A DNA stretch of 40,573 nt, from positions 1-40,573 of the forward strand of contig CAKKRK010000045.1 in assembly GCA_919902665.1 (NCBI GenBank), read 5' to 3'. The stretch comes from Nitrospiraceae bacterium (GTDB lineage Bacteria > Nitrospirota > Nitrospiria > Nitrospirales > Nitrospiraceae). A program made the position numbers and the translations under genes. The notes beneath the pieces were generated by a model. That model did no database searches. It was not told where the DNA came from and saw only the letters and a list, made by a program, of their open reading frames with translations. Positions 22,209 to 38,626 of the stretch are shown here, in pieces (positions within the stretch are counted from its first letter, which is position 1; every line of letters starts with the position of its first letter).

Positions 22209-22491
22209 TGCGATTCTCATATCATTGTCGATGTGGTTCCTTCCGGGCGGGTATGTGCGTAGCTCTCGGCTTCGGATTGCCACGGTAGGAGTGTTTCTGA
22301 GCCCACTGATGAGTGTGCGCATGTCGGGCCAAGAACAAATAAGGATGTCACGGAATCCCTACGTGTCCTGGTCGCACCAGGGACATTCGGCTTCCTTCCA
22401 TCCCCCTCTTTTGGCTAGTTACAACACTTAGGCACTTTCGTGCAGATTCCATCCGGCTGGCTCTGGATGACGCATCGGGGTGAAGGGGGCC

Positions 22492-22520
22492 TTGACAGCA
22501 AACCGACGGATTCTTAGACT
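22492..22520 (+). promoter_or_regulatory. Candidate sigma70 promoter of the lipase-RTX operon
   Basis: TTGACA (22492-22497) and TAGACT (22515-22520) are separated by 17 bases, about 95 bases upstream of the 107-aa gene. The -35 box is perfect and the -10 box shares four of six consensus bases. Confidence 0.45.
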
Positions 22521-22616
22521 CACGCACCCACTCATTAGGAACCCACATGCATTGGGTTATTCCTGTGCTGTTGTCATCCTCGCGGTTTCTCATCCACGAC
22601 GAAGGAGCGTGAGCCT

Positions 22617-22940
22617 ATGAGCGAATCCAAAGACGCCACCATTGCGTTGAATGTCCGGTTGAAGCCCTCTGAATCTTCCACCCATCCACGCGCGGCGAAC
22701 TATACGAACGTCGGTGTTGCACAGGGGATTGCCTATCTGGATTTTGGCTTCATCGAACCGGCGCTCCTTGCTGCTATTGCGAAGACGGCCAAGGACGGCC
22801 AGGCTGCACCCAAAGGCTTGGATGGTCACCTCGTCACCCGCGTGGCGATGGGCGTCGGTGCCCTGGTGCGATTGCAGCAGCAGATTCAGCAGATCTTGGT
22901 GGGATTGCAATCAGCGCAGAAGCCAAAGCCGAAAGACTGA
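22617..22940 (+). CDS. 107-aa protein of unknown function
   Basis: A soluble, cytoplasmic-looking protein. It starts MSESKDATIALNVRLKPSES, has a conserved-looking core NYTNVGVAQGIAYLDFGFIE and a C-terminal helix VRLQQQIQQILVGLQSAQ. The core recalls the small DUF3467 type (a strand, a YxN motif and a hydrophobic D/F-rich strand), but this is only a resemblance. The ribosome-binding site AAGGAG lies about 9 bases upstream of the ATG. It is the first gene of the probable operon leading into the giant lipase-RTX gene. Confidence 0.7.
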   Translation: MSESKDATIALNVRLKPSESSTHPRAANYTNVGVAQGIAYLDFGFIEPALLAAIAKTAKDGQAAPKGLDGHLVTRVAMGVGALVRLQQQIQQILVGLQSAQKPKPKD

Positions 22941-23025
22941 GAAGGAGAAGAGGTGCAGGCGAGTTCAGCGGAATGTAAATGGCGAGACCTGTTGCAACAG
23001 ACAAGACAACCTGAGAGGTCCGATC

Positions 23026-24096
23026 ATGCAACGACCGTGGTTGGTTCTAACCTTCCTTGTGGTGGCCATAAGCCCGCAGTTGGTGGAGGGTGGAGAAACA
23101 GCATCTCCGTATCCAATCGTTGATTCCGGCGTATGGGCAACGAACAGTTTCCCCGGAGATGTGTATTGGCTCGACAATGAGCGCGTGCTGTTTCTGGGAA
23201 GTGAAGATGGCAAACCCGTTGCGAAAGAACATGAGGCGCTCCTCGTTTGGGACACAACGAAGAAGGCCGTAACTCTCCAGAAACGCAATATCTCATCACT
23301 CTGTTATCGGAATGGGATCGTGCTGTTAGGACAGAAGATCGACAACCCGGCTGGCGGTCCCTGGAAATATCGATTCTTTAGAGGTTCATTGGGTGCGGAA
23401 CAACTACAAAAGAAAGAAAGCAAAGACCGAATAGACCATCTAAATTGCCGCATAGTGGGAAAAGCACCTGGCCAGGACCAAGGCCATTTTGGACGTTATT
23501 TGCTCGATGGCCACGGGTATTTAGACTACGGCGAAACAAGGCCATCGGATCTGCGCGCCAATCCGCCTGTCGTGTTGATCAAGGAAGGTGCTGCCAAAGG
23601 AATCGCACTGCCTTTCGGTATACGCCAAGTGGAGAGCTTGGAGTTTTATCCTTTTAATGGGGCGTACTTTTTGTACGGATGGTTCTTAGATTCATCAACG
23701 CACATCGTTAAATCTCCATGGCCCAATACTGTCCCTCATCCACTGTGGTGGCTCATGCCTGAGGGTACTGTCAGTGAAGTCTTGATTCCCTCGGGGGTAT
23801 GGAATTCCGGCGGATCCCTTCGATTTACTCCAACGATGAGGGGAGTGTTGGCGACATATCACGGAGGTACCAAGTCAGACCACGATCCTGGAACGCAAGG
23901 CGTCTACTTGATTCGAGAAAACGAAGTCGCACGGACCATTATCCGAGGCTTCGTTGCTCACGTCGGCGTGTCACCAGATGGCTGCAGGGTGGCGTTTTCC
24001 CATGCGCCTAATTATGAAGCAGACCGCCGCCCCAATGGCAAGAATCGCCGGACACTCAAGATGATTGATCTCTGCTCAGAAGGAGTCCAGTCATGA
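23026..24096 (+). CDS. Sec-exported protein coupled to the giant lipase-RTX gene
   Basis: A 356-residue protein with a signal peptide (RPWLVLTFLVVAISPQLVEG). ATG at 23026 is used, with AGAGG upstream; the longer open frame to 22714 runs through the 107-aa gene. The mature protein has repeated short strand-rich blocks (VYWLDNERVLFLGSEDGK; ALLVWDTTKKAVTLQ; GVSPDGCRVAFSHAP), the look of a TolB/WD-like beta-propeller, but no family is certain. Its stop overlaps the start of the 3356-aa lipase-RTX gene by 4 bp (ATGA), so the two are translated together. A periplasmic partner, chaperone or protective role towards the lipase is an inference from this coupling. Confidence 0.75.
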   Translation: MQRPWLVLTFLVVAISPQLVEGGETASPYPIVDSGVWATNSFPGDVYWLDNERVLFLGSEDGKPVAKEHEALLVWDTTKKAVTLQKRNISSLCYRNGIVLLGQKIDNPAGGPWKYRFFRGSLGAEQLQKKESKDRIDHLNCRIVGKAPGQDQGHFGRYLLDGHGYLDYGETRPSDLRANPPVVLIKEGAAKGIALPFGIRQVESLEFYPFNGAYFLYGWFLDSSTHIVKSPWPNTVPHPLWWLMPEGTVSEVLIPSGVWNSGGSLRFTPTMRGVLATYHGGTKSDHDPGTQGVYLIRENEVARTIIRGFVAHVGVSPDGCRVAFSHAPNYEADRRPNGKNRRTLKMIDLCSEGVQS

Positions 24097-27000
24097 TCTC
24101 AGAAACCCAAGCACAGACATTTTTGACAGCCAGCAGTCTGGCATATATCGACAATCCTCCAACGGGGCCTGTCGGATACGAGGTCGTAAGAGAATTTGCT
24201 GATCCAGCGACTGGCTTTCATGCTGTGGTGTTTAAAAATTCGAATAATGAATATGTTATTGCGTTTCGAGGAACCGAGACGAATTTTCAAGATGCTTACA
24301 CCGATCTAAATCTTGGCTGGACTCAGTGGACTGCAAGAAGTGAGGAAATTCTTACGTTTTTTAGGACACTTGAACTTAGCGGTGAAGTTGCCAGCATTGC
24401 CTTTACTGGACATAGCCTCGGGGGAGCCTTAGCCCAATATGCAGCCTACGAATACGCCAATGAGGCAAATCACGCACAATTTACGCTGACCACATTCAAT
24501 GCGTTTGGCGGTGTGCAAGGGATAGAGCAAAATCTTGCTCCTGGCCAGAGCTATGATAGCGCACGTCTCGCTGGGATTGATGTGAATCATTTCCGCGTTG
24601 CATCAGACATGGTCAGTCGTCTTGGTGAAGGACACATCGGCGGCAATGTGCGTGTCATTGATCTTCCCACTTCCGATTTTATCGTAGCCCACCGTCTAGA
24701 GACTTCGTTCTTGAATCCCACCAACACTGCGTATGAACTCACAGCCTTGCCGTTCGCCACACCGAATTACTTGCATGTCTCTTCAGGGCAACAGTTGGGC
24801 GCGGCGTTAGGTAACCTGTTCAACGACGGGACCTATAACGAATTCGAAGCCGCGCTTCGGACGACGGGGGCCTTGTTGCTCGTGCTGCAGCTCGCTCCGG
24901 CCAATGAAATCGATCAAGTGATGGATGCAATGCTCCCGCAGTATGCCCAGGTGAATTGGGGCACGGTGCGGTCCGTTCTGCCGGTTTCCGGTGGAGCTGT
25001 TGTGCTTGGTGGTGCTGGGCTGATTCTTGCCGCCGGCGCCTATGAAGGTGTGCAGGGGGCGGCTGACCGATTGGGCGAGGTGAAAACGTTCCTCGGTCGT
25101 ATCCTAGGTGAAAACTTCGACTCGCTCAACACCTTACCGACGGGGCAAGCCAGTCTTCGCATGTCTGTGTACCTGGCAGCCACGTCTGGAGTTGGCTTGG
25201 CCGGTTCCACGTTAGGTCAAGCCTTAAGTGGCCTCACCATCGATCCCGCGCAACTCACGACGCACTTGCTGAGTGGTGCCAACTGGCTCACTGACAGCGT
25301 GAATTATTTGCGAGCGCAAGCCAACACAGCAGGGCAGAATGCGGCAGATTTTAGCGCACGATTAGTATCCGGAATTTATCAAGAAGCACGCGCCCTCACG
25401 GGAGCCGCTACGGACTTTCTGCTCAACACGACGACGGCCCTGGAAACCTTCCTTCGCGACACGGCTCAGGGCATCAGCAACGCGGTCTCGGAGTTTCTCC
25501 ACGACCTGCCGAACACCCTCTTCAATCTCGGCCGCACGCTCAGCTTTGCCGAGCTCAATCCGTTTGCCACGGCATACGCGCAAGCGCTGGAAGATCCGAG
25601 ATGGGGCTCCGCGCTTCGGACCGCGATTGAAGACGCGCAGCAGATCGTCCAACAGGCCGGTCAGACCGTGGTGATGCAACAAGGGATTGGGCCGAATCCG
25701 TTCGCGACGACCGGGTTTAATCCCGATACAGCTCCACCAGCGACAGTGACGGCGAATGAAGGCCAACTGAACATGCTCACTATCCATCTGCCGTTTGAGG
25801 CTGGTGTGGGTGGACAGAAGCTCACGCTTACGCTGAGTGGCCCGAACGCCAGCGGAGTGGTGCTTCGCACAAACGGGCTCGAACTTTCCCCGAACGGCAG
25901 CACCTTTACGCTGACCATTCCCGAAGGCCAGAAGCAACTCGTGGTGGGCTTGCAGCAGAAGCAAGACATCGGAGCGTCCAGTTCGTTGACGGCTGTCGTG
26001 CAGCTCGTTGATGCGAATGGGATCGCCACTCATGCTTCTGACCATGAAGCAACGATCACGGTGGCGGACACAGGTCTCCTGCTCAACGGCACGGCGCCAA
26101 CGATTGACTACGCCGGCAACGGGTTTCCAACCGTGGTCTTCACTCCGGAAAATCCGGATGGCAGTGCCTGGAACATTGCGCGATTCGGCGAGGTCAACTA
26201 CGTGCTGACCGGCGGCAGTTGGAGTGACCAGATCACAGCAGATCTGGGGAACGATCAGTTGTTTGGCGGCGGTGGCAATGATGTGCTACAGGGCAATAAG
26301 GGGCAGGATCTCTTGGACGGAGGTGCTGGGGATGACGAACTTCAAGGGGGAGAGGGCGATGATGTTCTCTATGGTGGCCTCGGCAACGATGTGTTGGTGG
26401 GAACCGGCGCGCTGGCGGACGAAATTGGGAATGACTACCTGGACGGGGGAGAGGGGCTTGATATCTTGCTTGGGGGGTCCGGCAATGATCAGCTGATTGG
26501 CGGAGCCGGGGACGATCAGTTGTCTGGCGAAGGGATCCTGGTCGATGGCGCGGCCTGGACCAGCACCGGCAATGACTATCTCGATGGTGGAGACGGCCAC
26601 GATGGCCTGGCGGGTTTTGCGGGCGACGACATCTTGCTGGGTGGTCTCGGTGACGATCTGCTGAGCGGTGACAATCTGTTGAATGCGACTTTGCCCTGGA
26701 ATCCCACCGTGGACGGCAAAGACTTTTTGGATGGCGGTGCAGGGAACGATCGATTGTTCGGCGGCGGGAAGGACGACATCCTCCTGGGCGGCGATGGGGC
26801 GGACGAGCTCTGGGGCGACGATCAACAAGTCGGTGTGATTCAGGAAGGGAACGATTGGCTGGAAGGTGGTGTAGGGAATGATCAGCTTGTGGGCGGCGGG
26901 GGCAAGGATGCGCTCTTCGGCGGGGAGGGCGACGACCTGCTTGTCGGCGACTATGCCAACAATCCAACACTCGGGTTCGACGACACCCTCGACGGTGGAG

Positions 27001-30000
27001 CCGGGGTGGACGAACTACATGGGGGCGGTGGCGATGATCTGCTCGATGGCGGAAGCGGAAACGATCGCCTTTTTGGCCAGGAGGGGAATGATCAGCTCTA
27101 TGGGGGGATCGGAGATGACCATCTCCAAGGCGGCAACGGCGACGATGTGCTTGTCGGTGAAGCTGGCGTAGATGTCCTTGCCGGACAGGAGGGGGACGAT
27201 CAATTGTTCGGCGAGGATGGACATGACGAGCTGCAAGGCGGGGCAGGACAGGATCTACTTGTTGGCGGGCTGGGCAATGACCTGCTCCTCGGTGGGGACG
27301 GGAACGATGCCTTGTTCGGTGAGGAGGGAGACGATCAATTAAGCGGCGGTGCAGGGCTCGATCAACTGGTCGGAGGAGTAGGAAACGACTTACTCCTCGG
27401 CGACGGCGCGAACGATACCTTGTTCGGTGGAGAGGGGAACGATCAACTGCAAGGCGGTGACAGCAACGATACCCTGCTCGGCGAAGCCGGGATGGATGTG
27501 CTCTTTGGTGAAGCAGGGGACGACACCCTGTGGGGTGATGACGGCGATGATCAGCTTGCAGGAGAAGCCGGCAACGATGTGCTTATTGGCGGGACCGGTA
27601 ATGATCTGCTCCTTGGTGGGGGAGGCCGGGATTTCTATCATGTCGGGATGGGAGAGGGCGCCGACGTGATTACCGATAACGCCGGGGAAGGCAATCGTGT
27701 CGTGTTTGATGTAGGGGTCACGCCTGAGGACTTGCATGTCGGGCTCGCTCCCACTGCGCTGGTCATTCAAATGGGATCTGGCGGAGACCAAGTGGCCATT
27801 ACTGGCTTTAGTGCCAACGACGCGCTGGCGCCCTCTGCGATTACCGATTATCAATTTGCCGACGGGACAATCGTCACCCATGCTGACCTCGTCGCACGGG
27901 GGTTAGGCATTGATCCAACCTTGTTGGCCAATGCCGCAGTCACCGGCCGTGTGATAGCCGGTGGGACCGGTGGTGATCCGCTCAATGGCACGAGTCTTAA
28001 CGACCTCTTGCACGGCGGCGCCGGCAACGATTCGTTGTCAGGAGGCTCAGGAGCTGACACCTTGATTGGTGGCACGGGTGACGATCAGATCGACGGCGGC
28101 AGCGGGAACGACACCTATGTGTACCGCGTAGGAGATGGTCTTGATGTCGTGGTCGATACCGCCGTGGTGGGCGAGGGGAATGTGCTGTTGTTCGGACCTG
28201 GTATTGCCTCGGGCGACCTACGGCTGATGGTGAGTGGCTCGTCGGTTATCGTGGGGACAGGCAATCCGACCCAAGGTGTTCTGTTCGGGAATACGCGCCG
28301 GAACAGTATCACCGGCACGCACGATATCGATCGTTTCCAGACTGCGGATGGCACAGTGCTGAGCTATTCCGATCTGTTGGTGAAGGGTATCGATATTGTG
28401 GGCACGGCGGGCGAGGATCGCTTGGGTGGGACCAGTATAGGTGACCGGTTTCTAGGCAAAGCTGGGAACGATCAATTGTTCGGCGGAGCGGGGCATGATC
28501 AATATCGGTTCAACCTCGGTGACGGCATCGACACGATTGTCGATACGGCATCGGTGGCTGAAGGAAATGAGGTCATCTTTGGCGCAGACATTGCGTCGTC
28601 GATGCTGACGCTGAGCCTCGTGCAAGACTCCATCAACTCCTCGACAGGCCAGGACCTCGTCATGCGCATTGGCAGCGGTGGGGATCAACTGTGGCTCACC
28701 GGCCTCGATCGTGACAATGTTTTGGGACCGCGCGCCGTGGAGACCTTCCGGTTCACAGACGGCACGAGCCTCAGCTACGCCCAATTGCTGGAGCGTGGGA
28801 TTGAGCTCAATGGCACGTCCGGAGACGAGACCTTGACCGGGACGAATGTCAACGATCGGTTCGTCGGCGGGGAGGGCAATGACCGGTTGGAAGGCAAGGG
28901 TGGTGATGATCAGTATGTCTTCGGAAGAGGGGCAGGGCAGGACACGATTATGGATCGAGCGGGCGCGTTGGACAGGATTGAATGGGCCGCCGATGTGTTA
29001 CCCAGCGAGGTGGCGATCACTCGATCGGGCCACGATCTGGTGCTGACGATCACCGGTACAACGGATCGGGTGACGATTTCGGAATTCTTTTTGGCGGATA
29101 CCTTCCGGATCGAGGCGGTGCGGTTTGCCGATGGGACAGTCTGGGATGCGGCCTTTCTGGCCGAGGCGGTACAACACCGTGTTACCGGTACAGCGGGTCC
29201 TGATGTGCTTGATGGGACTGCCGCCGACGATCTGCTTATGGGCTTCGCTGGTGACGACCAACTGACGGGACTGGCAGGTGACGATTATCTTGATGGTGGG
29301 ACGGGCATCGATACGATGGTCGGAGATCTCGGTGACGATGTCTATGTGGTGGATGCCATAGGCGATGAGGTCATGGAGAATCTGAACGAAGGTATCGATG
29401 CCGTGCACAGTTCCGTCTCGCATACCCTCGGGCAGAACGTTGAAAACCTAACCTTGACTGGTCTCGGCGCCATCGACGGGACCGGTAATATACTGGACAA
29501 CATCCTCACTGGAAACAGCACCGCGAACATTCTTGCCGGTGGGGCCGGCAACGACACCTATGTGATTGGCACGGGCGATACGGTGGTAGAACAGGCGAAC
29601 GAAGGTCTCGACACCGTGCAGAGTGATCAGAGTTACGCCCTCGGCACCCATGTCGAGAACCTTACACTCACCGGCGTGGCGGCCATCAAGGGGACTGGCA
29701 ATGCACTGGACAATGTGCTGACCGGCAACGGGTCGATGAATCTGTTAGCCGGCGGAGCCGGCAACGATACGTACGTGCTGAAGGGGCTGGAAATCGTGAC
29801 CGAGTTAGCCGGGCAAGGGATTGATACGGTCATGACGGCACAGAGCTATCAGCTGGGCTCCCACGTGGAGCATCTCACCCTGCTCGATTCGGATCGCTCG
29901 CTCATCGGGAATCGGTTGTCACCGGTGTCGATCGACGCTATCGGCAACGAGCTTGAAAATACGCTGACGGGCAATCGCGGTATGAATCGGTTGGATGGTG

Positions 30001-33000
30001 GAGTGGGTGCCGATGTGATGCGTGGAAAGGCCGGGAACGACATCTACGTGGTCGACGATGCAGGAGACGTCGTGATCGAAACGGCAGTGGCAGGCATCGA
30101 TACGGTTGAAAGCGCGATCAGCTATACGCTGACCGATCACGTGGAGGATTTGTTGCTTACGGGGATGGGGGCCACGTCCGGGACCGGCAATCAACTTGAT
30201 AATCGGATCGTCGGCAATAGTGCGGGCAACGTACTTGATGGAGTCGGAGGCAATGATCGCCTCGAAGGTGGAGCGGGAGGCGACACCTATCTGTTCGGTC
30301 ATGGGTCTGGGTGGGATCGGGTCATTGATTCCGGTGTCGGAGATGTCATTCAGTTGAAGGTGGGGATTACACCGAATGATCTTGCCGTTGCGCAGTACTT
30401 CCACTCCGGCATCTTTCAGCCGAACGGATTGGTTCTCGGCATTCTCGGCTCGACCGATGCCCTCTATATACAGAGCTATTTTCACATGAGCGTGCCTCCT
30501 CTGATCAGGTTTGACGATGGGACGACCTGGGATCTCGCGGCCGTTAATCAACGCATGGTGACCGGCCCGTCTTTTGTCAGTCCAGATTGGAGAAACGTGG
30601 CCACCATTCGGGAGTCGGCCACCACGATTCTGGGAACCGCTGGGGACGACCTGCTGAGTGGTACCGCCGGTCCTGACGTCTTTTTCTCGTTCCTTGGTAG
30701 CGATACGCTGGTCGGTGGTGCCGGTGATGATCGCTATTCGATCGATTTCTCCGGAGACGACGTCATTATCGAGGATCAGAATGGGGGTGTGGACATCATC
30801 ACGGGGGATATACCTGATGAATATGTTCTACCGGACAACGTCGAGCAGGCCGAGTTTTTTGGTCGAGTGATGACCGGCAATGCTCTCGACAACGTGATCA
30901 CGGCAGGACCCGCCTCCAATACATTGGATGGAGGTCATGGGAACGATGTGCTGATCGGTGGGTTCTTGCGTTCCACGCCGGTCAGTCGGGACGATTCCGG
31001 CAGCGATATTCTCATCGGTGGCGACGGCGATGACACGCTTATTCCCGTCGGCGGAGCCCTCGATTCATCAGGCTTTATCTTCTCCATCTCGGATGACGCG
31101 ATCATCAAGGCGGATGATGTGTTAGTGGGTGGGCGGGGTGATGACACCTATATCCTCTATCATGCGGACGAGATGGTTATTGAACGGGTCGGCGAAGGGA
31201 CCGATAAGGTCCGTAGTGCAGTGACCTATACCCTTCCGGGAAACGTCGAGAATTTGGAATTATTGGATTCCAGGATCCCTGGATTGCCGAATGGTACGGG
31301 GAATGAATTGGACAACTTCATTCAGGGGAATAGCCTCGCGAATGTTTTGCAGGGTGAGGCAGGGAACGACACGCTGCAGGGTGGTCTTGACGATGATGTC
31401 CTACGTGGCGGGACCGGCCATGACACCTATCTCTTCAATCTCGGCGACGGCATCGACACGATTGAGGATGCTGCAGTAGTTGGTGAAGGAAACCGGATTC
31501 AGTTCGGAGTGGGCATCAGCCGGAACGATCTCACGTTCACACATGATGAAGCCACGCGGACGCTCATTATTCAAGTGGGCGCAGGTGGGACAGACCGGCT
31601 GGTGCTGAACAATTTTGATCTGGCCGGCGTGAACGGTACGGCGGTCGTTGAGACGCTGGCCTTCGCGGACGGCAGCACGACGAGTCTTGCCGGTTTCTTC
31701 GGACCGACCGTCACAGAAGGGAATGACACGATCACGACCGGAGCAGGGGACGACGTGATCAACGGGCTCGGTGGCGACGACGTTGTGGATGCCGGTGCCG
31801 GCAACGATAGCATCGCCGGTGGAATCGGGAATGATACGCTCACCGGCGGCCCTGGTGATGACACTTATATCTATGACCTTGGTGACGGCATCGACACTGT
31901 CAATGATACAAGCCTGCCTGGAGAAGGGAATGCCATTCAATTTGGGCCGGGGATCAGTCCGAACGATTTGACCTTGGATGTGGGATCTTTTCTGATTCGA
32001 GTCGGCACGACCGGCGGCGCGCTTCACCTCTCCAGTTTCGATCCAGCCAATGTGCTGGGGCCGCGCACGATTGAAACCTTCCAATTTGCTGATGGGACAG
32101 TTCTATCTTACGACCAGCTTGTTCAACGTGGGTTTGATCTGATGGGGACAGACGGCAGCGATTCCATTACCGGCACCAACGTCGTGGATCGGATCACGGC
32201 TCTCGCGGGGGACGATATGTTGGCTGGCGGGCGTGGAGCCGATCACCTGCAGGGTGGTGTGGGCCACGATACCTACATCTTCAACATTGGCGACGGCGTT
32301 GACACTATCGACGATGTGGTGCTGCCCGGCGCAGGGAATCGAATTCAATTCGGGGCTGGAATCAGTCAGAGCGACTTGAGCTTTGTCCAAGATGAAGCTG
32401 CTCGAACTCTGACCATTCAAGTAGGGGCCAGTGGGACCGATCGACTGGTGCTTGCCAATTTTGATCCTCGTGGCGCCAACGGTTCCCTGGTGGTCTCAGC
32501 GCTGGAGTTCGCCGATGGGAATCTGGTGAACCTGATTGACCTCTACCCTCCGAACCAGGCACCGATGGTTGCTGTTCCAGTGTTGGATCAGACCGCCGCC
32601 GAAGATTCATTCTTTACCTTTACGGTTCCCGCTACGACGTTCACCGATGGCGATGTGAGTCATGGAGACGCTCTCGCATATGGCGCATCTCTCGCTGACG
32701 GCAGCCCACTTCCGGCGTGGCTGAGCTTTGATCCGATCACCCGGACGTTTGAGGGAACTCCAAGCCCCGGCGATGCCGGCGTGCTGCAGGTCACGGTGAT
32801 CGCGACGGACACCAAGGGCGCGAGCACGACTGATCAGTTTGCGTTGACGGTATCGGGACCGCTTCCCCAAATCCTGACTGGTACAGCGGGCAACGACATC
32901 CTGATGGGTGGACGGGGAGACGACACTCTCAGTGGGTTGGCTGGAAACGATCTCTTGAATGGTGGGCAAGGGAACGACATGCTTGATGGAGGTACGGGAG

Positions 33001-34163
33001 CTGATTCGATGCAGGGTGGAACGGGCAATGACATGTATAGTGTTGATATGCCCGGTGACGTCGTCACCGAGTTCGTCAATGAAGGTATCGATACCGTGCA
33101 CAGCAGCATGACCTATACCCTTGGCGCCAATATCGAGAATCTTACCTTGGCCGGCACGGTGGCGATCAACGGGACCGGAAATGCCTTGAACAACGTGCTT
33201 CTGGGCAACAGTGCCAACAATACATTGAATGGCGGAGCTGGTCATGATCGGCTTGATGGCGGTCTCGGGATCGATGTGATGATCGGTGGGGTAGGCGATG
33301 ATACCTATGTCGTGGATCGAGCGGGCGATGTGGTGACTGAGCTCGCTGCACAAGGGAGCGATACGGTGGAAAGCAGCATCATCTACATTCTCGGACCGAA
33401 CCTGGAACATCTGATCCTCACCGGCTCGGCTCATATCAACGGTACGGGGAACTCAGTCCATAACGTGTTGTTGGGCAACAGTGGCAACAATATTTTAGAC
33501 GCGGGTTCCGGCGATGACACGTTGGACGGTGGGATGGGGAGTGACGCACTCTTTGGAGGGAGCGGTCACGATAGGCTCTTTGGTGGACTGGGGGACGACA
33601 GCCTCCATGCAGGGAGCGGAAACGATCTCCTTAATGGTGGTGAAGGAATTGATAGGCTCGACGGTGGGTCGGGTGACGATCGATTGTTAGGCGGTGCTGG
33701 CAACGATCAGCTCATAGGCGGCAGCGGGGCCGATCAACTCATCGGTGGGCTCGGCAATGACACGTTGGTCGGCAATTCAGGGAACGACACTTATCAGTTC
33801 GCACGAGGGGATGGTCAGGACACCATTCAGGATGTCGATGCGTTCGCAGGCAACCAAGACCGTGCTCTATTTGAGACGACCATCAATCCCCTTGATCTCG
33901 TCCTTAGCCGCCAGGCGAATGACCTCCGGCTTACCATTCACGGCTCGGCAGATCAGGTTACGGTAAAAGATTGGTATCTCGGAAGGACGAATCACATTGA
34001 GACGATTCAAGCAGGCAATGGAGAGATCCTGCTTAGCACACAGGTCGACCAACTGATCCAGGCCATGGCTGCGTTCTCCCAGCAATCCGGTCTTACGTGG
34101 GATCAAGCCATCGATCAGCGGCCGCAGGATGTGCAGGCGGTACTCGCCGCGAGTTGGCAGTAA
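24093..34163 (+). CDS. Giant RTX protein with N-terminal class 3 lipase domain (3356 aa)
   Basis: Probable type I-secreted, calcium-binding lipase/surface protein. Residues 1-220 form a Lipase_3 domain: VIAFRGTE (55-62), GHSLGG with nucleophile Ser108, likely Asp172 (SDMVS) and His200 (VAHRLET). Residues 220-540 are Ala-rich helices; 545-660 look like a Calx-beta-type sandwich. From about 710 come RTX nonapeptides (GGxGxDxLx), first as one long block to about 1180, then alternating with nine HCBP-related units (Y.F..GDG.DTI.D...GN.I.FG) and eight serralysin-like units (GIDTV.S..SYTLG..VENLTL). A cadherin-like domain (about 2820-2920) precedes a last RTX block. The end (LIQAMAAFSQQSG to VQAVLAASWQ) is a likely type I signal. 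No N-terminal signal peptide. AAGGAG lies upstream of the ATG. No ABC exporter, membrane fusion partner or HlyC gene is in view. Confidence 0.9.
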   Translation: MISETQAQTFLTASSLAYIDNPPTGPVGYEVVREFADPATGFHAVVFKNSNNEYVIAFRGTETNFQDAYTDLNLGWTQWTARSEEILTFFRTLELSGEVASIAFTGHSLGGALAQYAAYEYANEANHAQFTLTTFNAFGGVQGIEQNLAPGQSYDSARLAGIDVNHFRVASDMVSRLGEGHIGGNVRVIDLPTSDFIVAHRLETSFLNPTNTAYELTALPFATPNYLHVSSGQQLGAALGNLFNDGTYNEFEAALRTTGALLLVLQLAPANEIDQVMDAMLPQYAQVNWGTVRSVLPVSGGAVVLGGAGLILAAGAYEGVQGAADRLGEVKTFLGRILGENFDSLNTLPTGQASLRMSVYLAATSGVGLAGSTLGQALSGLTIDPAQLTTHLLSGANWLTDSVNYLRAQANTAGQNAADFSARLVSGIYQEARALTGAATDFLLNTTTALETFLRDTAQGISNAVSEFLHDLPNTLFNLGRTLSFAELNPFATAYAQALEDPRWGSALRTAIEDAQQIVQQAGQTVVMQQGIGPNPFATTGFNPDTAPPATVTANEGQLNMLTIHLPFEAGVGGQKLTLTLSGPNASGVVLRTNGLELSPNGSTFTLTIPEGQKQLVVGLQQKQDIGASSSLTAVVQLVDANGIATHASDHEATITVADTGLLLNGTAPTIDYAGNGFPTVVFTPENPDGSAWNIARFGEVNYVLTGGSWSDQITADLGNDQLFGGGGNDVLQGNKGQDLLDGGAGDDELQGGEGDDVLYGGLGNDVLVGTGALADEIGNDYLDGGEGLDILLGGSGNDQLIGGAGDDQLSGEGILVDGAAWTSTGNDYLDGGDGHDGLAGFAGDDILLGGLGDDLLSGDNLLNATLPWNPTVDGKDFLDGGAGNDRLFGGGKDDILLGGDGADELWGDDQQVGVIQEGNDWLEGGVGNDQLVGGGGKDALFGGEGDDLLVGDYANNPTLGFDDTLDGGAGVDELHGGGGDDLLDGGSGNDRLFGQEGNDQLYGGIGDDHLQGGNGDDVLVGEAGVDVLAGQEGDDQLFGEDGHDELQGGAGQDLLVGGLGNDLLLGGDGNDALFGEEGDDQLSGGAGLDQLVGGVGNDLLLGDGANDTLFGGEGNDQLQGGDSNDTLLGEAGMDVLFGEAGDDTLWGDDGDDQLAGEAGNDVLIGGTGNDLLLGGGGRDFYHVGMGEGADVITDNAGEGNRVVFDVGVTPEDLHVGLAPTALVIQMGSGGDQVAITGFSANDALAPSAITDYQFADGTIVTHADLVARGLGIDPTLLANAAVTGRVIAGGTGGDPLNGTSLNDLLHGGAGNDSLSGGSGADTLIGGTGDDQIDGGSGNDTYVYRVGDGLDVVVDTAVVGEGNVLLFGPGIASGDLRLMVSGSSVIVGTGNPTQGVLFGNTRRNSITGTHDIDRFQTADGTVLSYSDLLVKGIDIVGTAGEDRLGGTSIGDRFLGKAGNDQLFGGAGHDQYRFNLGDGIDTIVDTASVAEGNEVIFGADIASSMLTLSLVQDSINSSTGQDLVMRIGSGGDQLWLTGLDRDNVLGPRAVETFRFTDGTSLSYAQLLERGIELNGTSGDETLTGTNVNDRFVGGEGNDRLEGKGGDDQYVFGRGAGQDTIMDRAGALDRIEWAADVLPSEVAITRSGHDLVLTITGTTDRVTISEFFLADTFRIEAVRFADGTVWDAAFLAEAVQHRVTGTAGPDVLDGTAADDLLMGFAGDDQLTGLAGDDYLDGGTGIDTMVGDLGDDVYVVDAIGDEVMENLNEGIDAVHSSVSHTLGQNVENLTLTGLGAIDGTGNILDNILTGNSTANILAGGAGNDTYVIGTGDTVVEQANEGLDTVQSDQSYALGTHVENLTLTGVAAIKGTGNALDNVLTGNGSMNLLAGGAGNDTYVLKGLEIVTELAGQGIDTVMTAQSYQLGSHVEHLTLLDSDRSLIGNRLSPVSIDAIGNELENTLTGNRGMNRLDGGVGADVMRGKAGNDIYVVDDAGDVVIETAVAGIDTVESAISYTLTDHVEDLLLTGMGATSGTGNQLDNRIVGNSAGNVLDGVGGNDRLEGGAGGDTYLFGHGSGWDRVIDSGVGDVIQLKVGITPNDLAVAQYFHSGIFQPNGLVLGILGSTDALYIQSYFHMSVPPLIRFDDGTTWDLAAVNQRMVTGPSFVSPDWRNVATIRESATTILGTAGDDLLSGTAGPDVFFSFLGSDTLVGGAGDDRYSIDFSGDDVIIEDQNGGVDIITGDIPDEYVLPDNVEQAEFFGRVMTGNALDNVITAGPASNTLDGGHGNDVLIGGFLRSTPVSRDDSGSDILIGGDGDDTLIPVGGALDSSGFIFSISDDAIIKADDVLVGGRGDDTYILYHADEMVIERVGEGTDKVRSAVTYTLPGNVENLELLDSRIPGLPNGTGNELDNFIQGNSLANVLQGEAGNDTLQGGLDDDVLRGGTGHDTYLFNLGDGIDTIEDAAVVGEGNRIQFGVGISRNDLTFTHDEATRTLIIQVGAGGTDRLVLNNFDLAGVNGTAVVETLAFADGSTTSLAGFFGPTVTEGNDTITTGAGDDVINGLGGDDVVDAGAGNDSIAGGIGNDTLTGGPGDDTYIYDLGDGIDTVNDTSLPGEGNAIQFGPGISPNDLTLDVGSFLIRVGTTGGALHLSSFDPANVLGPRTIETFQFADGTVLSYDQLVQRGFDLMGTDGSDSITGTNVVDRITALAGDDMLAGGRGADHLQGGVGHDTYIFNIGDGVDTIDDVVLPGAGNRIQFGAGISQSDLSFVQDEAARTLTIQVGASGTDRLVLANFDPRGANGSLVVSALEFADGNLVNLIDLYPPNQAPMVAVPVLDQTAAEDSFFTFTVPATTFTDGDVSHGDALAYGASLADGSPLPAWLSFDPITRTFEGTPSPGDAGVLQVTVIATDTKGASTTDQFALTVSGPLPQILTGTAGNDILMGGRGDDTLSGLAGNDLLNGGQGNDMLDGGTGADSMQGGTGNDMYSVDMPGDVVTEFVNEGIDTVHSSMTYTLGANIENLTLAGTVAINGTGNALNNVLLGNSANNTLNGGAGHDRLDGGLGIDVMIGGVGDDTYVVDRAGDVVTELAAQGSDTVESSIIYILGPNLEHLILTGSAHINGTGNSVHNVLLGNSGNNILDAGSGDDTLDGGMGSDALFGGSGHDRLFGGLGDDSLHAGSGNDLLNGGEGIDRLDGGSGDDRLLGGAGNDQLIGGSGADQLIGGLGNDTLVGNSGNDTYQFARGDGQDTIQDVDAFAGNQDRALFETTINPLDLVLSRQANDLRLTIHGSADQVTVKDWYLGRTNHIETIQAGNGEILLSTQVDQLIQAMAAFSQQSGLTWDQAIDQRPQDVQAVLAASWQ
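26224..27640 (+). repeat. Main RTX nonapeptide block of the giant gene
   Basis: About 1.4 kb of tandem 27-base units (18-residue double turns) coding GGxGNDxLxG-type calcium-binding repeats with short inserts. The repeats are diverged rather than identical at DNA level, so the block is old. Further RTX blocks lie near 27970, 28440, 29190, 30930, 31720 and 33490-33780. Confidence 0.85.
32540..32872 (+). other. Cadherin-like (CADG/He_PIG) domain coding segment
   Basis: Encodes a segment with NQAPMVAVPVLDQTAAEDSF, PAWLSFDPITRTFEGTPSPG and VTVIATDTKGASTTDQFALT, the pattern of dystroglycan-type cadherin-like domains. The fragment at 13396-13553 matches its first part and the unit just before it. 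Confidence 0.75.
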
Positions 34164-34199
34164 TGATGAGGAGGACTGGCTCAGGGCTCAGTGGCTGTG

Positions 34200-34661
34200 C
34201 TAATCGCTCGGCGGCTCGAAATGTCCGGAGGGGCGCTGTTGCCAGGGCACAGTCGCTTGACGCGATTGTTTGACTAAACTTCGTAGACTCATCTCAGCGG
34301 CCCGCAGAAGTTTGGGGTCACCGGCTTGCATGAGCGTGGTTAAGAGGACATAGAGTGATCGATCGGCGTGAGATCCAGCCAAGATCCGATCGGTCACCGG
34401 ATCAATCTGCGAGGTATCCGGCTCCTCATCCTCTGCTGAATCTGTGAAGAGCCATTTAAAGGATTGGGGGTTGTCGAACAGCCAAGAAGGCGGAATGCAA
34501 AACGCGGAGGCAAGCGCTTCAAGTGTACTCGTTGTGGGATCGGCCTGATCCGCTTCGATTTGTTCAAGGAGCGTGGTTGGAATTCCTGCCGCGTCTGATA
34601 ACGACTCGATCGATTGGTTTCTGGAGAGTCTCCAGCCCTGGATAAATAGCCCTATCGACAT
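34200..34661 (-). CDS. XRE-family helix-turn-helix regulator
   Basis: A 153-residue protein with an N-terminal Cro/CI-type HTH (FIQGWRLSRNQSIESLSDAA, GIPTTLLEQIEADQADPTTS, LEALASAFCIPPSWLF; residues 5-65). The C-terminal 85 residues are helical and not recognised. ATG at 34659-34661 is used; a GTG five codons upstream is possible. It is divergent from the coiled-coil gene at 34822, with an AT-rich intergenic region that contains a palindrome over a -10 box, so it may control that gene and itself. It ends close to the convergent giant RTX gene. Confidence 0.8.
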   Translation of the reverse strand: MSIGLFIQGWRLSRNQSIESLSDAAGIPTTLLEQIEADQADPTTSTLEALASAFCIPPSWLFDNPQSFKWLFTDSAEDEEPDTSQIDPVTDRILAGSHADRSLYVLLTTLMQAGDPKLLRAAEMSLRSLVKQSRQATVPWQQRPSGHFEPPSD

Positions 34662-34752
34662 AAGGCCATGATACACAATGAAAGGTTGAGCTTCAATTGA
34701 ATCATGCGATAAATTGACATTTATTTATTAAAATCAATGTGTTATGATCTAT

Positions 34753-34786
34753 TTCCAGTACTGGTGTGAAATCGGTATAATACCGA
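34753..34786 (+). promoter_or_regulatory. Promoter with operator-like palindrome over the -10 box
   Basis: TCGGTAT-A-ATACCGA (34772-34786) is a perfect 7-bp palindrome around one base and includes a consensus -10 TATAAT (34776-34781). A weak -35 (TTCCAG, 34753-34758) lies 17 bases upstream. Transcription would start near 34788 and lead into the gene at 34822. The adjacent XRE protein is the obvious candidate binder. Confidence 0.55.
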
Positions 34787-34821
34787 CACAAGTTTCATCG
34801 TGTTGAAGGAGGTGGGGGCGT

Positions 34822-35163
34822 ATGTTAGGAACCGATATTCGTGGCATCATGGCTGAGGAAGAAGAGGTCCAGCGCCGACAAGAGGCGCTCAAGTCGCTCA
34901 TGACGATGCGGTCCAAGCAGCTTCGAGAGTCCTTGGATGATCGAATCAAGCGTGCTAGGAGCAGCGGGGATTGGACACAGTTGTCCAAGGCGGAATGCGC
35001 GAATTTACATAAGCAGGAAAGGGCCCACCTGCAGTCTCAGCTTGAACAGTTACAGTTTGAGCAGACTCGGACTCGGGGAAAGCTGACAGCCTTGAAACGT
35101 GCCAAGGCGAGGGCGCAACGTATCCGCGCTGCTGAAGCGGCCTCTGAACGAAGGCGTCGTTGA
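34822..35163 (+). CDS. Small coiled-coil protein of unknown function
   Basis: A 113-residue, highly charged, all-helical protein with two long coiled-coil stretches (EEEEVQRRQEALKSLMTMRS; KQERAHLQSQLEQLQFEQTR) and a very basic tail (ASERRRR). Two cysteines or a known domain are not evident; one Cys lies mid-protein. The ribosome-binding site GAAGGAGGTG is strong. The operator-like palindrome upstream suggests repression by the divergent XRE protein. The basic tail could bind nucleic acid, which is inference. Confidence 0.7.
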   Translation: MLGTDIRGIMAEEEEVQRRQEALKSLMTMRSKQLRESLDDRIKRARSSGDWTQLSKAECANLHKQERAHLQSQLEQLQFEQTRTRGKLTALKRAKARAQRIRAAEAASERRRR

Positions 35164-35219
35164 TTACCCACTCCAGCTGTCTTGATCCTATGTGTTTCAG
35201 TGCGATGAGTGGTCTCTAG

Positions 35220-36065
35220 GTGGCTGTCGTGCTGCAGCCACCGGTTCTCACTCGTGCAGGGGCCTCGCGGATCCGGCATCTGCTTCGCGATACGAAGGCC
35301 AGATCGAGAGAAGCTGCCTTCGTCCTTGAAGGAGCCAAGTCCTGTCGTGATCTCATTCACCAGTCTCCCCAGGCCATTCTCAGTCTGATCGTCTCACCGC
35401 GCTTTCTCTGTATGGAGACCGAGGCAGATCGAAGGGCTCGCGTGCAATTGCCTGCGTCCCAGTTCCTGTGTTCGGACATCGACTTTGACAAGCTGACTGA
35501 TGTTGAGATGCCGCAAGGGATATTAGCCGTCGTCCGACAACCTCGGTGGGATGAAGCCCATGTGCTCAAACAGTCGTGCGTACTTGGCCTGTATGGGGAT
35601 CGACTACAAGATCCAGCGAACGTGGGCGCGATCATTCGGACAGCTGCGGCGCTGAATTTGTCCGGAGTGTGGTTAAGCGCCAATTCCGCCGATCATTTTG
35701 CTCCCAAGGTGGTTCGTGCCACGGCCGGCACCATCCTGAGCCTTCCAGTTTTTCACACGTGGGATTGGCGGGCATTCTCCTCGTATGGGTGTGACATCTA
35801 TTCGGCGGTCCTAGCTTCGACTGATCGAGTCCCCATCAGGAAGATTCGAACAAGACCCAGCCGCCTCATGATTGCGGTCGGAAACGAGGGAGCAGGGTTG
35901 GCCTCAGACATCGTGAAGGCGTCTCGCGTGAGGTTTTCTATTCCACTGGCCGAGGGGGTGGAGTCGTTGAATGTCGCGGCGACCGCGGCGATTTCGGCAT
36001 TCCACTTCAGCGGATTGCGGCTCGACTCCGATGGCGGATCCAGGGGATCAGGCCATTCAGCATAG
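35220..36065 (+). CDS. TrmH/SpoU-family RNA 2'-O-methyltransferase
   Basis: A 281-residue SPOUT methyltransferase that methylates a ribose 2'-OH in rRNA or tRNA. An N-terminal substrate-binding domain (residues 10-105; SRIRHLLRDTKARSREAAFV, LEGAKSCRDLI) precedes the catalytic domain with motif 1 QDPANVGAIIRTAAAL (130-145), motif 2 GNEGAGL (221-227) and motif 3 IPLAEGVESLNVAATAA (241-257). This is the layout of RlmB/TsnR-like enzymes; the target is not clear. The start GTG at 35220 has a weak ribosome-binding site; a nearby GTG three codons on is an alternative. It ends 45 bases before the efflux operon and may be co-transcribed. Confidence 0.85.
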   Translation: MAVVLQPPVLTRAGASRIRHLLRDTKARSREAAFVLEGAKSCRDLIHQSPQAILSLIVSPRFLCMETEADRRARVQLPASQFLCSDIDFDKLTDVEMPQGILAVVRQPRWDEAHVLKQSCVLGLYGDRLQDPANVGAIIRTAAALNLSGVWLSANSADHFAPKVVRATAGTILSLPVFHTWDWRAFSSYGCDIYSAVLASTDRVPIRKIRTRPSRLMIAVGNEGAGLASDIVKASRVRFSIPLAEGVESLNVAATAAISAFHFSGLRLDSDGGSRGSGHSA

Positions 36066-36110
36066 ATGTTTGAAATTAAACGACGTTCGGCCTACTATGA
36101 GGTGCAGTTC

Positions 36111-37415
36111 ATGCGATCCAGACTAGAGGCGAGAATGGGGGTCAGGTTCGTGTTGATGTGTGCAATCAGTCTCGGATGTGGCGTGGTCACGGCCTCTGCT
36201 CAATCTTCTTCTGCTCAATCCGATGGGCAGTTGTATAGCCTCGACATGATCGTCAATCTGGCCTTGGCAAAAAACCCCTTAGTATCCTCCGCGGAAGGAG
36301 TGATCGAGCAGCAGAAGGGACAGCAGACGGCGGCCGGCGCTTACCCGAACCCCACTATTGCTAGTTCCGGTGGTCACGGGAATCTGCGGGATATCGGTCG
36401 AGTGACTATTGGACCGGTCCTTGATCGACAGGGGGTCACGGAATACAACGTGACGGTCGGACAACCGGTCGAATGGCCAGCGCTACGTGCGGCGCGGCAA
36501 CGAGTGGCGGATCTTGGATTGGCGACGGCCAACGTGGGTATGTTGGAGACGCGATTGAACTTGGCGTCACAGGTCAAGGTGGCATTCTACGATCTGCTCT
36601 TGGCTCAACATGATGCTGATTTGGCGCGCCAGAATCTTGATACCGTCGAAGGTGTGGCCCGGATCGTGAGGGCACGGGTCAAGTCGGGTGAAGCGCCTCA
36701 ATTTGAATCCATCAAGGCAGAGGTGGAAGTCTTGAAGGCTCGGCAGCAACTCGCGCGTGCGGATAATCTGGTTCGGATCAACCGCGTTGTCGTGGATACC
36801 TTGACCGGTGGTGCGCTAGGGCCGTCCTATCTGGTCCATGGCGAATTCAGGATCCTGCCTCGTGACCTGGAGATCGAAGGACTCATGACTCGCATGATGG
36901 AGCAGCATCCAACGATCCAGCGTCTCCTCAAGTCTGTCGAACAATCGGATTGGAAGATTGAATTTGAACGGCAGGCGAGAGTGCCGACGCTCACCGTCAA
37001 CGGTGGATACTGGCGTGATCTTGGGCGAGAGGCGTTTCAAGGAGGTCTCTCTGTCCCTGTACCGCTCTGGTACCGGCGTCAGGGAGAAATCGCCTCCTCG
37101 TTAGGGGTGAAACGCCGAGAAGAAGCGGAGCTGCTTCGGACACGCAATGAACTCGGGCGAGCCGTGTACCAACATTTTCAGGATGTGCGCACTACTGCGG
37201 AGCTGCTCGAGGTGTTTGAGAAGGGATTGTTGAAGCAGGCTCAGGAGGCACTGAGGCTGGCGCAGTTCAGTTTTCAACAGGGGGCGTCAAGTCTGCTGGA
37301 AGTGCTCGATGCGCAGCGAGTGCAGCGACAGATCTTACTGGACTATGCGCAGGCGCGTCGTGACCTCTCCGCCTCGCTGGCCCGACTGGAGCAAGCCGTA
37401 GGGGTGGCGCTGTGA
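36111..37415 (+). CDS. TolC-family outer membrane efflux protein (CzcC/CusC type)
   Basis: A 434-residue outer-membrane channel of a tripartite heavy-metal pump. A signal peptide (VRFVLMCAISLGCGVVTASA) is followed by two OEP repeats: about 50-230 (LDMIVNLALAKNPLVSSAEG; NLASQVKVAFYDLLLAQHDA) and 250-430 (QHPTIQRLLKSVEQSDWKIE; AQFSFQQGASSLLEVLDAQR). ATG at 36111 is preferred because GAGGTG stands about 6 bases upstream; an in-frame ATG at 36066 directly follows the previous stop. It overlaps the adaptor gene by 4 bp, and with the RND gene forms a CzcCBA-like operon. Confidence 0.87.
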   Translation: MRSRLEARMGVRFVLMCAISLGCGVVTASAQSSSAQSDGQLYSLDMIVNLALAKNPLVSSAEGVIEQQKGQQTAAGAYPNPTIASSGGHGNLRDIGRVTIGPVLDRQGVTEYNVTVGQPVEWPALRAARQRVADLGLATANVGMLETRLNLASQVKVAFYDLLLAQHDADLARQNLDTVEGVARIVRARVKSGEAPQFESIKAEVEVLKARQQLARADNLVRINRVVVDTLTGGALGPSYLVHGEFRILPRDLEIEGLMTRMMEQHPTIQRLLKSVEQSDWKIEFERQARVPTLTVNGGYWRDLGREAFQGGLSVPVPLWYRRQGEIASSLGVKRREEAELLRTRNELGRAVYQHFQDVRTTAELLEVFEKGLLKQAQEALRLAQFSFQQGASSLLEVLDAQRVQRQILLDYAQARRDLSASLARLEQAVGVAL

Positions 37416-38626
37416 AGGCCCTATCTGGTTCACCACGAGCTTCATGGAGGTGTCTCAGCCGAGGTATGTCCGGTCTTCTGTTCGGTTTGATGGTACTTGA
37501 ATCAGGCTGCGATGGAACACCGAGCGATGTGGTGGCGAGTAAGTCGCCCGTCGCCGTGTCAACGCCTGGCCGCATCACGCTGTCGGCGGAGGAGTCGTCG
37601 CGGGTGGGCGTGGTTGTCCAGCCGGTCGCGCGCAGCGATTTTCGAACGCACCGGGACTTCCCCGCCATCGTGCAACCCAATCAACGGAACATGGCGGAGA
37701 TCACTGCGTTGGTTCGAGGGCGAGTGGTCGAGGTGTACGGCGAGCTAGGCCAGGAGGTCAAAGGAAATGCCCCGCTGGCGATCCTGTATAGTAGCGATCT
37801 GGGGCTTGCTCAATCGGCCTATCTCAAAGCCAAGGCCAAGCTTCACGTGGCGGAGCAGGCCTTCGAGCGTGCGCAATTCCTCCTCCAAGAGCAGGTGATC
37901 GGCGAGGCGGAATTGCAGCGCCGCCAGGCAGAGTTGCTGAGTAACCAGGCCGAGGCCAATGAATCACACGATCGGCTTAAGCTGCTTGGCATGAATGATG
38001 AAGAATTCAGGCGTCTCGAGAGTAGCCGGAAGATCCGTTCGGTCGTGCCGATTGTGGCTCCCTTTGCCGGCCGGATCATCGTGCGTAAGTTGACACGAGG
38101 CGAGGTCGTCGAGACGACCGATAATCTATTCGTGATCGCTGATCTTTCGGAAGTCTGGGTGCAAGCGAATATTCCCGAGAAGGACATTCCCTTCGCGCAT
38201 TCTATCCATGCATCCGGAGACAGGCAAGTTGAGGTGCGGATCAACGCCTATCCCAAGGAGGTCTTTCGAGGGACGATCACCTATGTCGCGGATGTGCTCG
38301 ATCCCGTGACACGCACCATGCAACTCAGGATTGAGTTGCCGAATCAGGATGGGCGGCTCAAACCGGAAATGTTCGCGACGATTCGACTCTTTTCCGAAGC
38401 CCAGCCTGAGCAACTGGCTGTGCCGGAGGCCGCGTTGCAACGCGATCAAGGACGCACCTTCGTCTTCGTGCAACGCAGCCCGAACGAGTATGAGTTGCGG
38501 GAGGTGCACGTCGGCGAATCCAATGGGACCGTGACGGCCATCCTCGGCGGCCTGAACGAAGGCGAACCGGTCGTGACCCATGGTGCCTTTGTCTTGAAGT
38601 CCGAGTTATTGAAGAAACCCGTCTGA
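37412..38626 (+). CDS. RND efflux periplasmic adaptor (CzcB/CusB type)
   Basis: A 404-residue membrane fusion protein. The N-terminus has a hydrophobic segment ending LESGCDG, a non-consensus lipobox, so it may be lipid-anchored. A barrel-sandwich half motif (ALVRGRVVEVYGELGQEVKG) leads into the helical hairpin (residues 135-200), and the second half (VVPIVAPFAGRIIVRKLTRG, then EVVETTDNLFVIADLSEVWV) follows; the beta-barrel and C-terminal domains (EGEPVVTHGAFVLKSEL) complete it. No N-terminal His-rich metal domain is seen. The start GTG overlaps the TolC-family stop. It couples the inner-membrane pump to the outer-membrane channel. Confidence 0.88.
   Translation: MKALSGSPRASWRCLSRGMSGLLFGLMVLESGCDGTPSDVVASKSPVAVSTPGRITLSAEESSRVGVVVQPVARSDFRTHRDFPAIVQPNQRNMAEITALVRGRVVEVYGELGQEVKGNAPLAILYSSDLGLAQSAYLKAKAKLHVAEQAFERAQFLLQEQVIGEAELQRRQAELLSNQAEANESHDRLKLLGMNDEEFRRLESSRKIRSVVPIVAPFAGRIIVRKLTRGEVVETTDNLFVIADLSEVWVQANIPEKDIPFAHSIHASGDRQVEVRINAYPKEVFRGTITYVADVLDPVTRTMQLRIELPNQDGRLKPEMFATIRLFSEAQPEQLAVPEAALQRDQGRTFVFVQRSPNEYELREVHVGESNGTVTAILGGLNEGEPVVTHGAFVLKSELLKKPV

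Follow-up and report, generated by a model that had tools for sequence, protein, structure and literature searches.

What is the function of a giant lipase-RTX protein whose gene starts within the end of the gene for an exported protein? The question is raised by contig CAKKRK010000045.1 of a Nitrospiraceae bacterium (assembly GCA_919902665.1), a stretch of 40,573 nucleotides that is referred to here as the window and forms contig C45 of a 240-contig, 3.56-Mb metagenome-assembled genome (MAG) with an estimated completeness of 99.86%. An earlier, sequence-only reading had taken the protein for a candidate type I-secreted effector whose exported neighbour might confer immunity or assist folding; comparison with relatives supported this through co-occurrence, a candidate exporter and joint swapping. 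The locus is likely to represent an allele of a type I-delivered polymorphic toxin-immunity system, in which relatives have swapped, at a single chromosomal site, the lipase-bearing N-terminus jointly with the exported partner encoded upstream. Exchange of enzyme and partner as a unit is what would be expected in the evolution of a bacterial weapon and its antidote. Comparison of the loci established cassette swapping, one-to-one pairing, linkage to an exporter in relatives and the occurrence of lysozyme alternatives. The features of the locus are as follows (aa, amino acids; ORF, open reading frame):

22617-22940, + strand: up107, conserved accessory gene for a 107-aa protein (ORF, family alignment)
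23026-24096, + strand: 356-aa exported partner, class P0, proposed periplasmic immunity protein (ORF, alignment, AlphaFold2 model)
24093-34163, + strand: 3,356-aa effector, built of a class 3 lipase at the N-terminus, a linker, RTX repeats and a conserved C-terminal tail
24093-24992, + strand: lipase domain, residues ~1-300 (boundary approximate), with Ser108/Asp172/His200; exchanged cassette class E1
26265-33770, + strand: RTX nonapeptide region, residues 725 to ~3226, with HCBP_related domains
32562-32855, + strand: He_PIG immunoglobulin-like domain, residues 2824-2921, within the RTX region (Pfam)
33501-34160, + strand: C-terminal 220 residues of the effector, alike across cassette classes; presumed type I secretion signal region

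All three genes are intact and lie in the order described by the sequence-only reading, and the junction of partner stop and effector start reads ATGA, which bears out the reported 4-bp overlap. In its longest form the partner ORF extends upstream to 22714; the start adopted here is the ATG at 23026. The MAG G007 has the three genes in identical order, with identities to the window of 87% for the 107-aa protein, 90% for the partner and 95% for the first 400 residues of the effector, and this conservation excludes chance as the origin of the arrangement.

Exchange of effector and partner cassettes

A hint of exchange came from genome G010, where another membrane protein follows the 107-aa gene and the N-terminus of the giant RTX protein after it also differs. 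The 107-aa gene was therefore used to trace loci; the regions downstream of it were collected and their genes clustered. The 46 curated effector/partner pairs fell into eight effector clusters (E) and nine partner clusters (P) with an adjusted Rand index (ARI) of 0.93, which none of 5000 shuffles equalled. Among pairs of loci, 158 agreed in both clusters, 20 combined the same effector with different partners, none combined different effectors with the same partner and 857 differed in both; E0 was the sole effector cluster with two partner clusters (P1 and P5). The 46-pair set leaves out eight ORFs with no N-terminal domain (two at L026, the second at L089, three at L091, and those of L078 and L107), one further ORF of L077 and repeated entries for L088, L092 and L094. 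The pairs of the L077 lysozyme, the L063 lysozyme fragment and L025 were set by hand, and loci L109-L166, several of which are duplicate contigs of other loci, stand outside the count.

Profile comparison, which omitted short pieces and in which several classes hold one or two sequences, related the four lipase classes E0-E3 to one another with probabilities of 92-97%; for E4 and E7, the lysozyme classes, the probability of a relation was 93%. In contrast, 35 of 36 pairs of partner classes remained below 5%, the exception being P1-P5 (77% over 25 columns). P0 and P3, both of which may be propellers by eye, reached 4.9% over 119 columns. In Mantel tests on 16 full loci (omitting L080, in which the reading frame is lost at the C-terminal end, and L025, whose upstream bases read N and which gave no 107-aa sequence), N-terminus and partner correlated with r = 0.95, with 0 of 5000 permutations as high, while the correlation of either with the tail or the 107-aa protein was r 0.17-0.19.

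The last 220 residues of the effector have a median identity of 58% over 210 residues between classes and 61% within them, against 32% over 122 residues between classes and 48% over 424 within classes for the N-termini. For only 2 of 18 effectors does the closest tail come from their own class, and one of these two (L080) rests on 27 residues; tails may be almost identical despite different cassettes (95% over 220 residues for the window and L072; 98% for L095 and L101). At the DNA level, the window and L072 are 94% identical over 32694-39278, into the downstream flank, and 79% over 22387-22908, at the 107-aa gene, with no match across partner and lipase.

The flanks of the exchanged segment in the window are:

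17886-19301, - strand: pyridine-nucleotide-disulphide oxidoreductase (dihydrolipoamide-dehydrogenase-like), conserved upstream flank of the site
34200-34676, - strand: helix-turn-helix (HTH) regulator, downstream flank retained in 14 classified loci, which carry five types of cassette
35220-36065, + strand: SpoU-type rRNA methylase, conserved downstream flank

The common downstream flank of these 14 loci consists of the HTH regulator, a small gene and SpoU, and the cassettes found there are E1/P0 (five loci), E3/P3 (three), E0/P1 (three), E2/P2 (two) and E0/P5 (one); a fifteenth locus, L107, has an RTX remnant only. This distribution is read as allelic replacement at one orthologous site. Many other stretches are too short to reach the flank, and several loci adjoin an exporter instead. 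Tandem and truncated cassettes occur at L069, L108 and L094, and the effector lies in pieces at L089 and L091.

Effector enzymes and their partners

The effector N-terminus in the window gave partial Pfam matches to Lipase_3, with 27.3 bits against a cut-off of 22, and to Mbeg1-like, with 33.4 bits against 21.1. It has the GxSxG motif and Ser-Asp-His triad by which class 3 lipases are recognized, and the residues earlier assigned by motif, Ser108 (in GHSLG), Asp172 and His200, proved invariant in 9 of 9 aligned lipases of its class, the window's included. A search of PDB sequences gave a weak match to a diacylglycerol lipase (E 0.032); an hnRNP match (E 0.0053) is presumably spurious. The remainder of the protein contains 34 PF00353 RTX stretches, HCBP_related domains and one He_PIG domain by Pfam, and the effector has no cysteines. 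The GGxGxDxUX repeats characteristic of RTX substrates of type I secretion systems (T1SS) are present, with 63 motif matches from residue 725 to 3218. Calcium-binding repeats had been correctly named by the sequence-only reading, although its figure of more than 2600 residues is slightly too high; the nonapeptide motifs span ~2,500.

The partner begins with MQRPWLVLTFLVVAIS..., which by eye is a Sec-type signal. Its four cysteines, all invariant in 10 aligned partners, could form disulfides in the periplasm. The AlphaFold2 model (pLDDT 78.6) resembles a beta-propeller; its best fold matches (Z 14.4) are an S9 carboxypeptidase and the propeller of the Pyrococcus trilobed protease, and the partner profile found 2gop, also a propeller, among PDB sequences at E 0.094. 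Neither Pfam nor a plasmid search gave a match to the partner.

Among 59 genomes including its own, the partner had matches in seven and the lipase N-terminus in 12, the weakest of which are merely lipase-like; the partner adjoins a lipase-RTX gene in G007, G012, G016, G022 and G024. Fifteen P0 loci have a readable next gene, and in 12 of them (the window, L022-L025, L027, L081, L097, L101, L192, L193 and L194) a lipase of the window's class lies directly behind the partner. Three are orphans (L026, L196 and L195), and a further locus, L029, stops within the partner, so that its next gene is not readable. The P0 family profile (A2) matched in 12 of 395 genomes of the phylum, eight from this genus, three from other genera of the family and one from another family. 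Outside the genus, the partner has a lipase-RTX neighbour in G236 and G219 and a lipase neighbour at the contig end in G310, and is an orphan in G268. The sequence-only reading had held that wide occurrence of the family away from any lipase would count against a partnership; the family was instead found in few genomes and, at most readable loci, beside a lipase.

Two P0 loci deserve separate mention. At L196:4273-5364 (G101), an uninterrupted 364-aa orphan partner lies at the conserved site, with a P1 partner and an E0 RTX effector further on; it looks like an immunity gene retained after cassette replacement. At L194:5715-6752 (G310; family f23), a 345-aa lipase of the window's class without RTX repeats lies directly behind a P0-type partner. 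The contig ends 82 bases past the stop, and an effector form that lacks RTX repeats is therefore not claimed.

Across the loci, the effector N-termini are mostly lipase-like, and a simple pattern search found GHSLG, GQSLG or GYSLG in many of them. Class E4 matched Phage_lysozyme of Pfam with 32.2 bits in L083, above the cut-off of 22.3, and 17.8 bits in L069, below it; the E7 protein of L077 reached 20.9 bits, just under the same cut-off. PDB sequence searches matched L083 through its RTX part alone and gave no match with L077 or L102. The RTX effectors at L092:6759-8186 and L102:1872-3371 share an E5 N-terminus and have a partner class of their own, P6; no family was identified for this N-terminus in Pfam or, for L102, in PDB sequences. 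Nine partners from eight classes had no Pfam match at cut-off, and one of them matched TPR and FG-GAP weakly. For 40 of 46 partners the stretch of highest hydrophobicity exceeded the threshold and lay no further than residue 130 in the longest ORF, compared with 0 of 46 effectors for such a stretch in the first 60 residues. The six partners that failed this crude hydrophobicity criterion of an export signal are the first of L081, that of L082, the first of L083, the first of L092, the second of L094 and that of L099; the first five are read as truncated pieces, and L099 is not.

The exporter and the 107-aa gene

No type I exporter had been recognized in the 40 kb, and as far as the window was examined this was correct. 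The genes at 36066-38626 for an outer-membrane factor and an HlyD-like protein match OEP and HlyD_D23 (CusB type) and were rejected as a T1SS, being of the efflux type; a similar pair at L022 is followed by an ORF that, from its start, is RND-pump-like by eye. The HlyB/HlyD/TolC set that was suggested to lie elsewhere in the genome was located as an operon on contig C20, with HlyB, HlyD and a TolC-like gene, of which HlyB scored 1035 bits to TIGR01846 (cut-off 725.55). In L175:8404-9797, which is part of this contig (G000:C20), HlyD lies in two overlapping frames, through either an assembly error or a real interruption. The HlyD family search was unspecific, as 13 of 14 control genomes also matched, one of them above cut-off.

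In relatives, exporter and effector may be neighbours. The 107-aa gene, partner, lipase-RTX gene, HlyB and HlyD are contiguous in G236, which belongs to a different genus of the family, and the exporter lies directly behind the effector in G022. HlyB is found ~8-15 kb from the 107-aa gene in G060, G063, G026, G092, G091, G095 and G018, and at 19 kb in G017. The 107-aa gene stands immediately ahead of HlyB in G034 and likewise in G004, where HlyB is more distant in sequence (65% identical). Closed effector genes of >1,900 aa occur exclusively in HlyB-positive genomes (18/18), which make up 56 of the 79 genus genomes at a limit of E 1e-200 that misses fragments. Across these 79 genomes, 39 have both the 107-aa gene and HlyB, six the gene only, 17 HlyB only and 17 neither; four of the six (G070, G071, G072 and G077) hold just fragments or copies with stops. 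On the basis of operon adjacency in relatives, the C20 exporter is the candidate for export of the giant RTX protein.

The 107-aa gene is the constant first gene of the effector loci and, in some relatives, heads the exporter operon. Matches, fragments included, were found in 45 of the 79 genomes of the genus, and the alignment of 42 family members has a mean column identity of 72%. Of the loci in named genomes, 56 of 58 are titled Nitrospira, Nitrospiraceae or Nitrospirae, and they include the complete N. moscoviensis chromosome; the genus of the window is accordingly taken to be Nitrospira. The records of L160 and L150, titled Candidatus Peribacteraceae and Nitrosospira, hold a Nitrospira-type 107-aa gene and are possibly mis-binned or mis-labelled. 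At L067, L079 and L086 the gene precedes further ABC exporter-HlyD-TolC-like operons; the L067 exporter is PrtD-like by eye at its N-terminus. Searches of Pfam, NCBIfam, PADLOC, PDB sequences and folds found no convincing relative of the 107-aa protein. A prefoldin match (E 0.069) was treated as chance, the best fold match reached Z 4.1, and a SecB-like chaperone, considered from the order of strands and helices, was supported by no search.

A proposed immunity role and its alternatives

Type I export carries an RTX protein from the cytosol to the outside in one step, bypassing the periplasm. Any lipase that reaches the periplasm of a producer should therefore have been sent by a neighbour, and an exported, class-specific partner would thus make sense as an immunity protein. 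Immunity is favoured over a folding role because related lipase classes have partners between which no relationship was detected, because partner and toxin domain swap together and because lysozyme effectors have partners of their own. In the proposed mechanism, the giant protein would be made in the cytoplasm and exported by the HlyB/HlyD/TolC-type system of C20, which would use its conserved RTX and C-terminal region, and calcium would fold the RTX part outside the cell. The N-terminal lipase may then enter a neighbouring bacterium and attack its membrane phospholipids, while the 356-aa protein, sent by Sec to the periplasm of the producer, would bind and block lipase from sister cells with its beta-propeller. 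The 107-aa protein may be an unvarying helper in the cytosol, perhaps with a chaperone role in export or a regulatory one. The lipase effectors of the type VI secretion system (T6SS), called Tle, are phospholipid-attacking enzymes with periplasmic Tli immunity proteins that are delivered by the T6SS with no RTX vehicle; the proposed likeness to the pair in the window lies in the combination of such an enzyme with a periplasmic inhibitor.

Several observations weigh against this interpretation. The effector and partner classes depend on single-linkage thresholds chosen by the author, and the genomes are related, mostly MAGs and not independent draws. Linked genes are inherited together, so that pairing alone is no proof of binding; the case for the partner rests on swapping against constant flanks and a constant tail. 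The low correlations with the tail and 107-aa protein (r 0.17-0.19) are nominally above chance, with 103 to 231 of 5000 permutations as high, and cassette exchange is therefore not complete. In the genome of the window, the effector gene and the exporter operon lie on separate contigs, and the two are separated by 132 kb to 1.04 Mb in G059, G061, G068 and G024. In the own exporter, HlyD falls into two frames whose pieces both score below the TIGR01843 cut-off, and TolC falls below that of TIGR01844. Co-occurrence of the 107-aa gene with HlyB is only moderate (Fisher p = 0.0009), and lipases also serve nutrition.

It is conceivable, though improbable, that the effector acts as an enzyme in nutrition or in biofilms, or is directed at grazing protozoa, that the neighbouring protein is accessory to it and that no bacterium is targeted. 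Lipase-RTX exoenzymes are indeed common, but lysozyme alternatives, allelic exchange, tandem remnants and orphan partners are typical of interbacterial conflict. It is likewise doubtful that the partner serves as a receptor on the surface of the producer, to which the secreted RTX protein would stay attached in the way suggested for FrpD and FrpC, even though FrpD binds the N-terminal domain of FrpC with a dissociation constant of ~0.2 nM (PMC5233953) and the distant partner relatives at L194 and L195 have a lipobox-like cysteine by eye. No lipobox was seen by eye in the partner of the window, and docking would not explain why there are nine partner clusters, each linked to a single class of enzyme; such a role could also coexist with immunity. 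Also improbable is a Lif-like foldase or chaperone dedicated to the lipase, on which enzyme activity would depend; this would suit an exported partner translationally coupled to the lipase but not partners that show no detectable kinship among related lipase classes, that accompany lysozymes too and that persist as orphans with no adjacent effector, nor would a periplasmic foldase meet a client whose type I export bypasses the periplasm.

The toxin-immunity interpretation places the locus beside several known systems. Polymorphic toxin systems are described as having a constant delivery part, exchangeable toxins, adjacent immunity genes and standalone cassettes, with lipase-like hydrolases among the toxins, and type I delivery appears in the relevant passages only as background for RTX toxins (PMC3482391, Zhang et al., 2012). 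The loci studied here agree in having a tail that is constant across classes with an exchanged N-terminus, an adjacent family specific to the toxin class (ARI 0.93; E0 with P1 and P5), truncated cassettes (L069, L108 and L094) and orphan genes of the putative immunity protein (L026 and L196). They differ in polarity: toxin domains are C-terminal in the systems of that account (PMC3482391), whereas here the enzyme occupies the N-terminus, the partner gene comes first and the presumed T1SS signal region lies at the C-terminus.

Close parallels are FrpC/FrpD of Neisseria and Smlt3024/Smlt3025 of Stenotrophomonas, in which a T1SS RTX protein has its N-terminal domain bound by an exported partner of the same operon. 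FrpD is an outer-membrane lipoprotein in one operon with FrpC (PMC5233953), and an antibacterial role of FrpC, with FrpD as immunity protein, has been proposed as a hypothesis (PMC6759196). In these pairs, the function of the N-terminal domain is described as unknown and the partner is a lipoprotein, and the passages concerned describe no series of exchanged cassettes (PMC5233953; PMC6759196). The lipocone (Min-Wnt) toxins also carry a toxin domain N-terminal to RTX-like repeats, with suggested T1SS export; the domain is a different one and the corresponding passages describe no exchange at the level of the locus (PMC12419801). Cdz of Caulobacter shares T1SS-dependent contact killing and a dedicated immunity protein, but its toxins are described as 84- and 86-aa glycine-zipper proteins and not giant RTX enzymes (PMC5380434). 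No such system in Nitrospira was described among the matches listed in the open-licence PubMed Central literature. The locus is a variant of the known polymorphic toxin kind, by the comparisons made here, and the antibacterial T1SS role is already in print as the FrpC/FrpD hypothesis.

A broader reading, towards which we lean with less assurance, is that of a Nitrospira kin-discrimination locus, whose site swaps cassettes of N-terminal toxin and exported immunity protein on a constant, type I-exported RTX vehicle. Further loci beside the exporter would hold additional cassettes, with four lipase classes, lysozymes and one further enzyme, and a lineage-specific 107-aa helper would be common to effector and exporter operons; the whole would form a polymorphic toxin class of reversed polarity. 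If the toxin-immunity interpretation is true, type I secretion would be another delivery route for exchangeable antibacterial pairs of enzyme and immunity protein, a route represented so far, in the sources cited above, by the FrpC/FrpD hypothesis and a remark on RTX-fused lipocone toxins. The natural cassette alleles make the question directly testable, as each partner should protect solely against its own enzyme. Nitrospira nitrifiers would then have a weapon for strain discrimination, which would bear on the coexistence of strains in biofilters and treatment plants.

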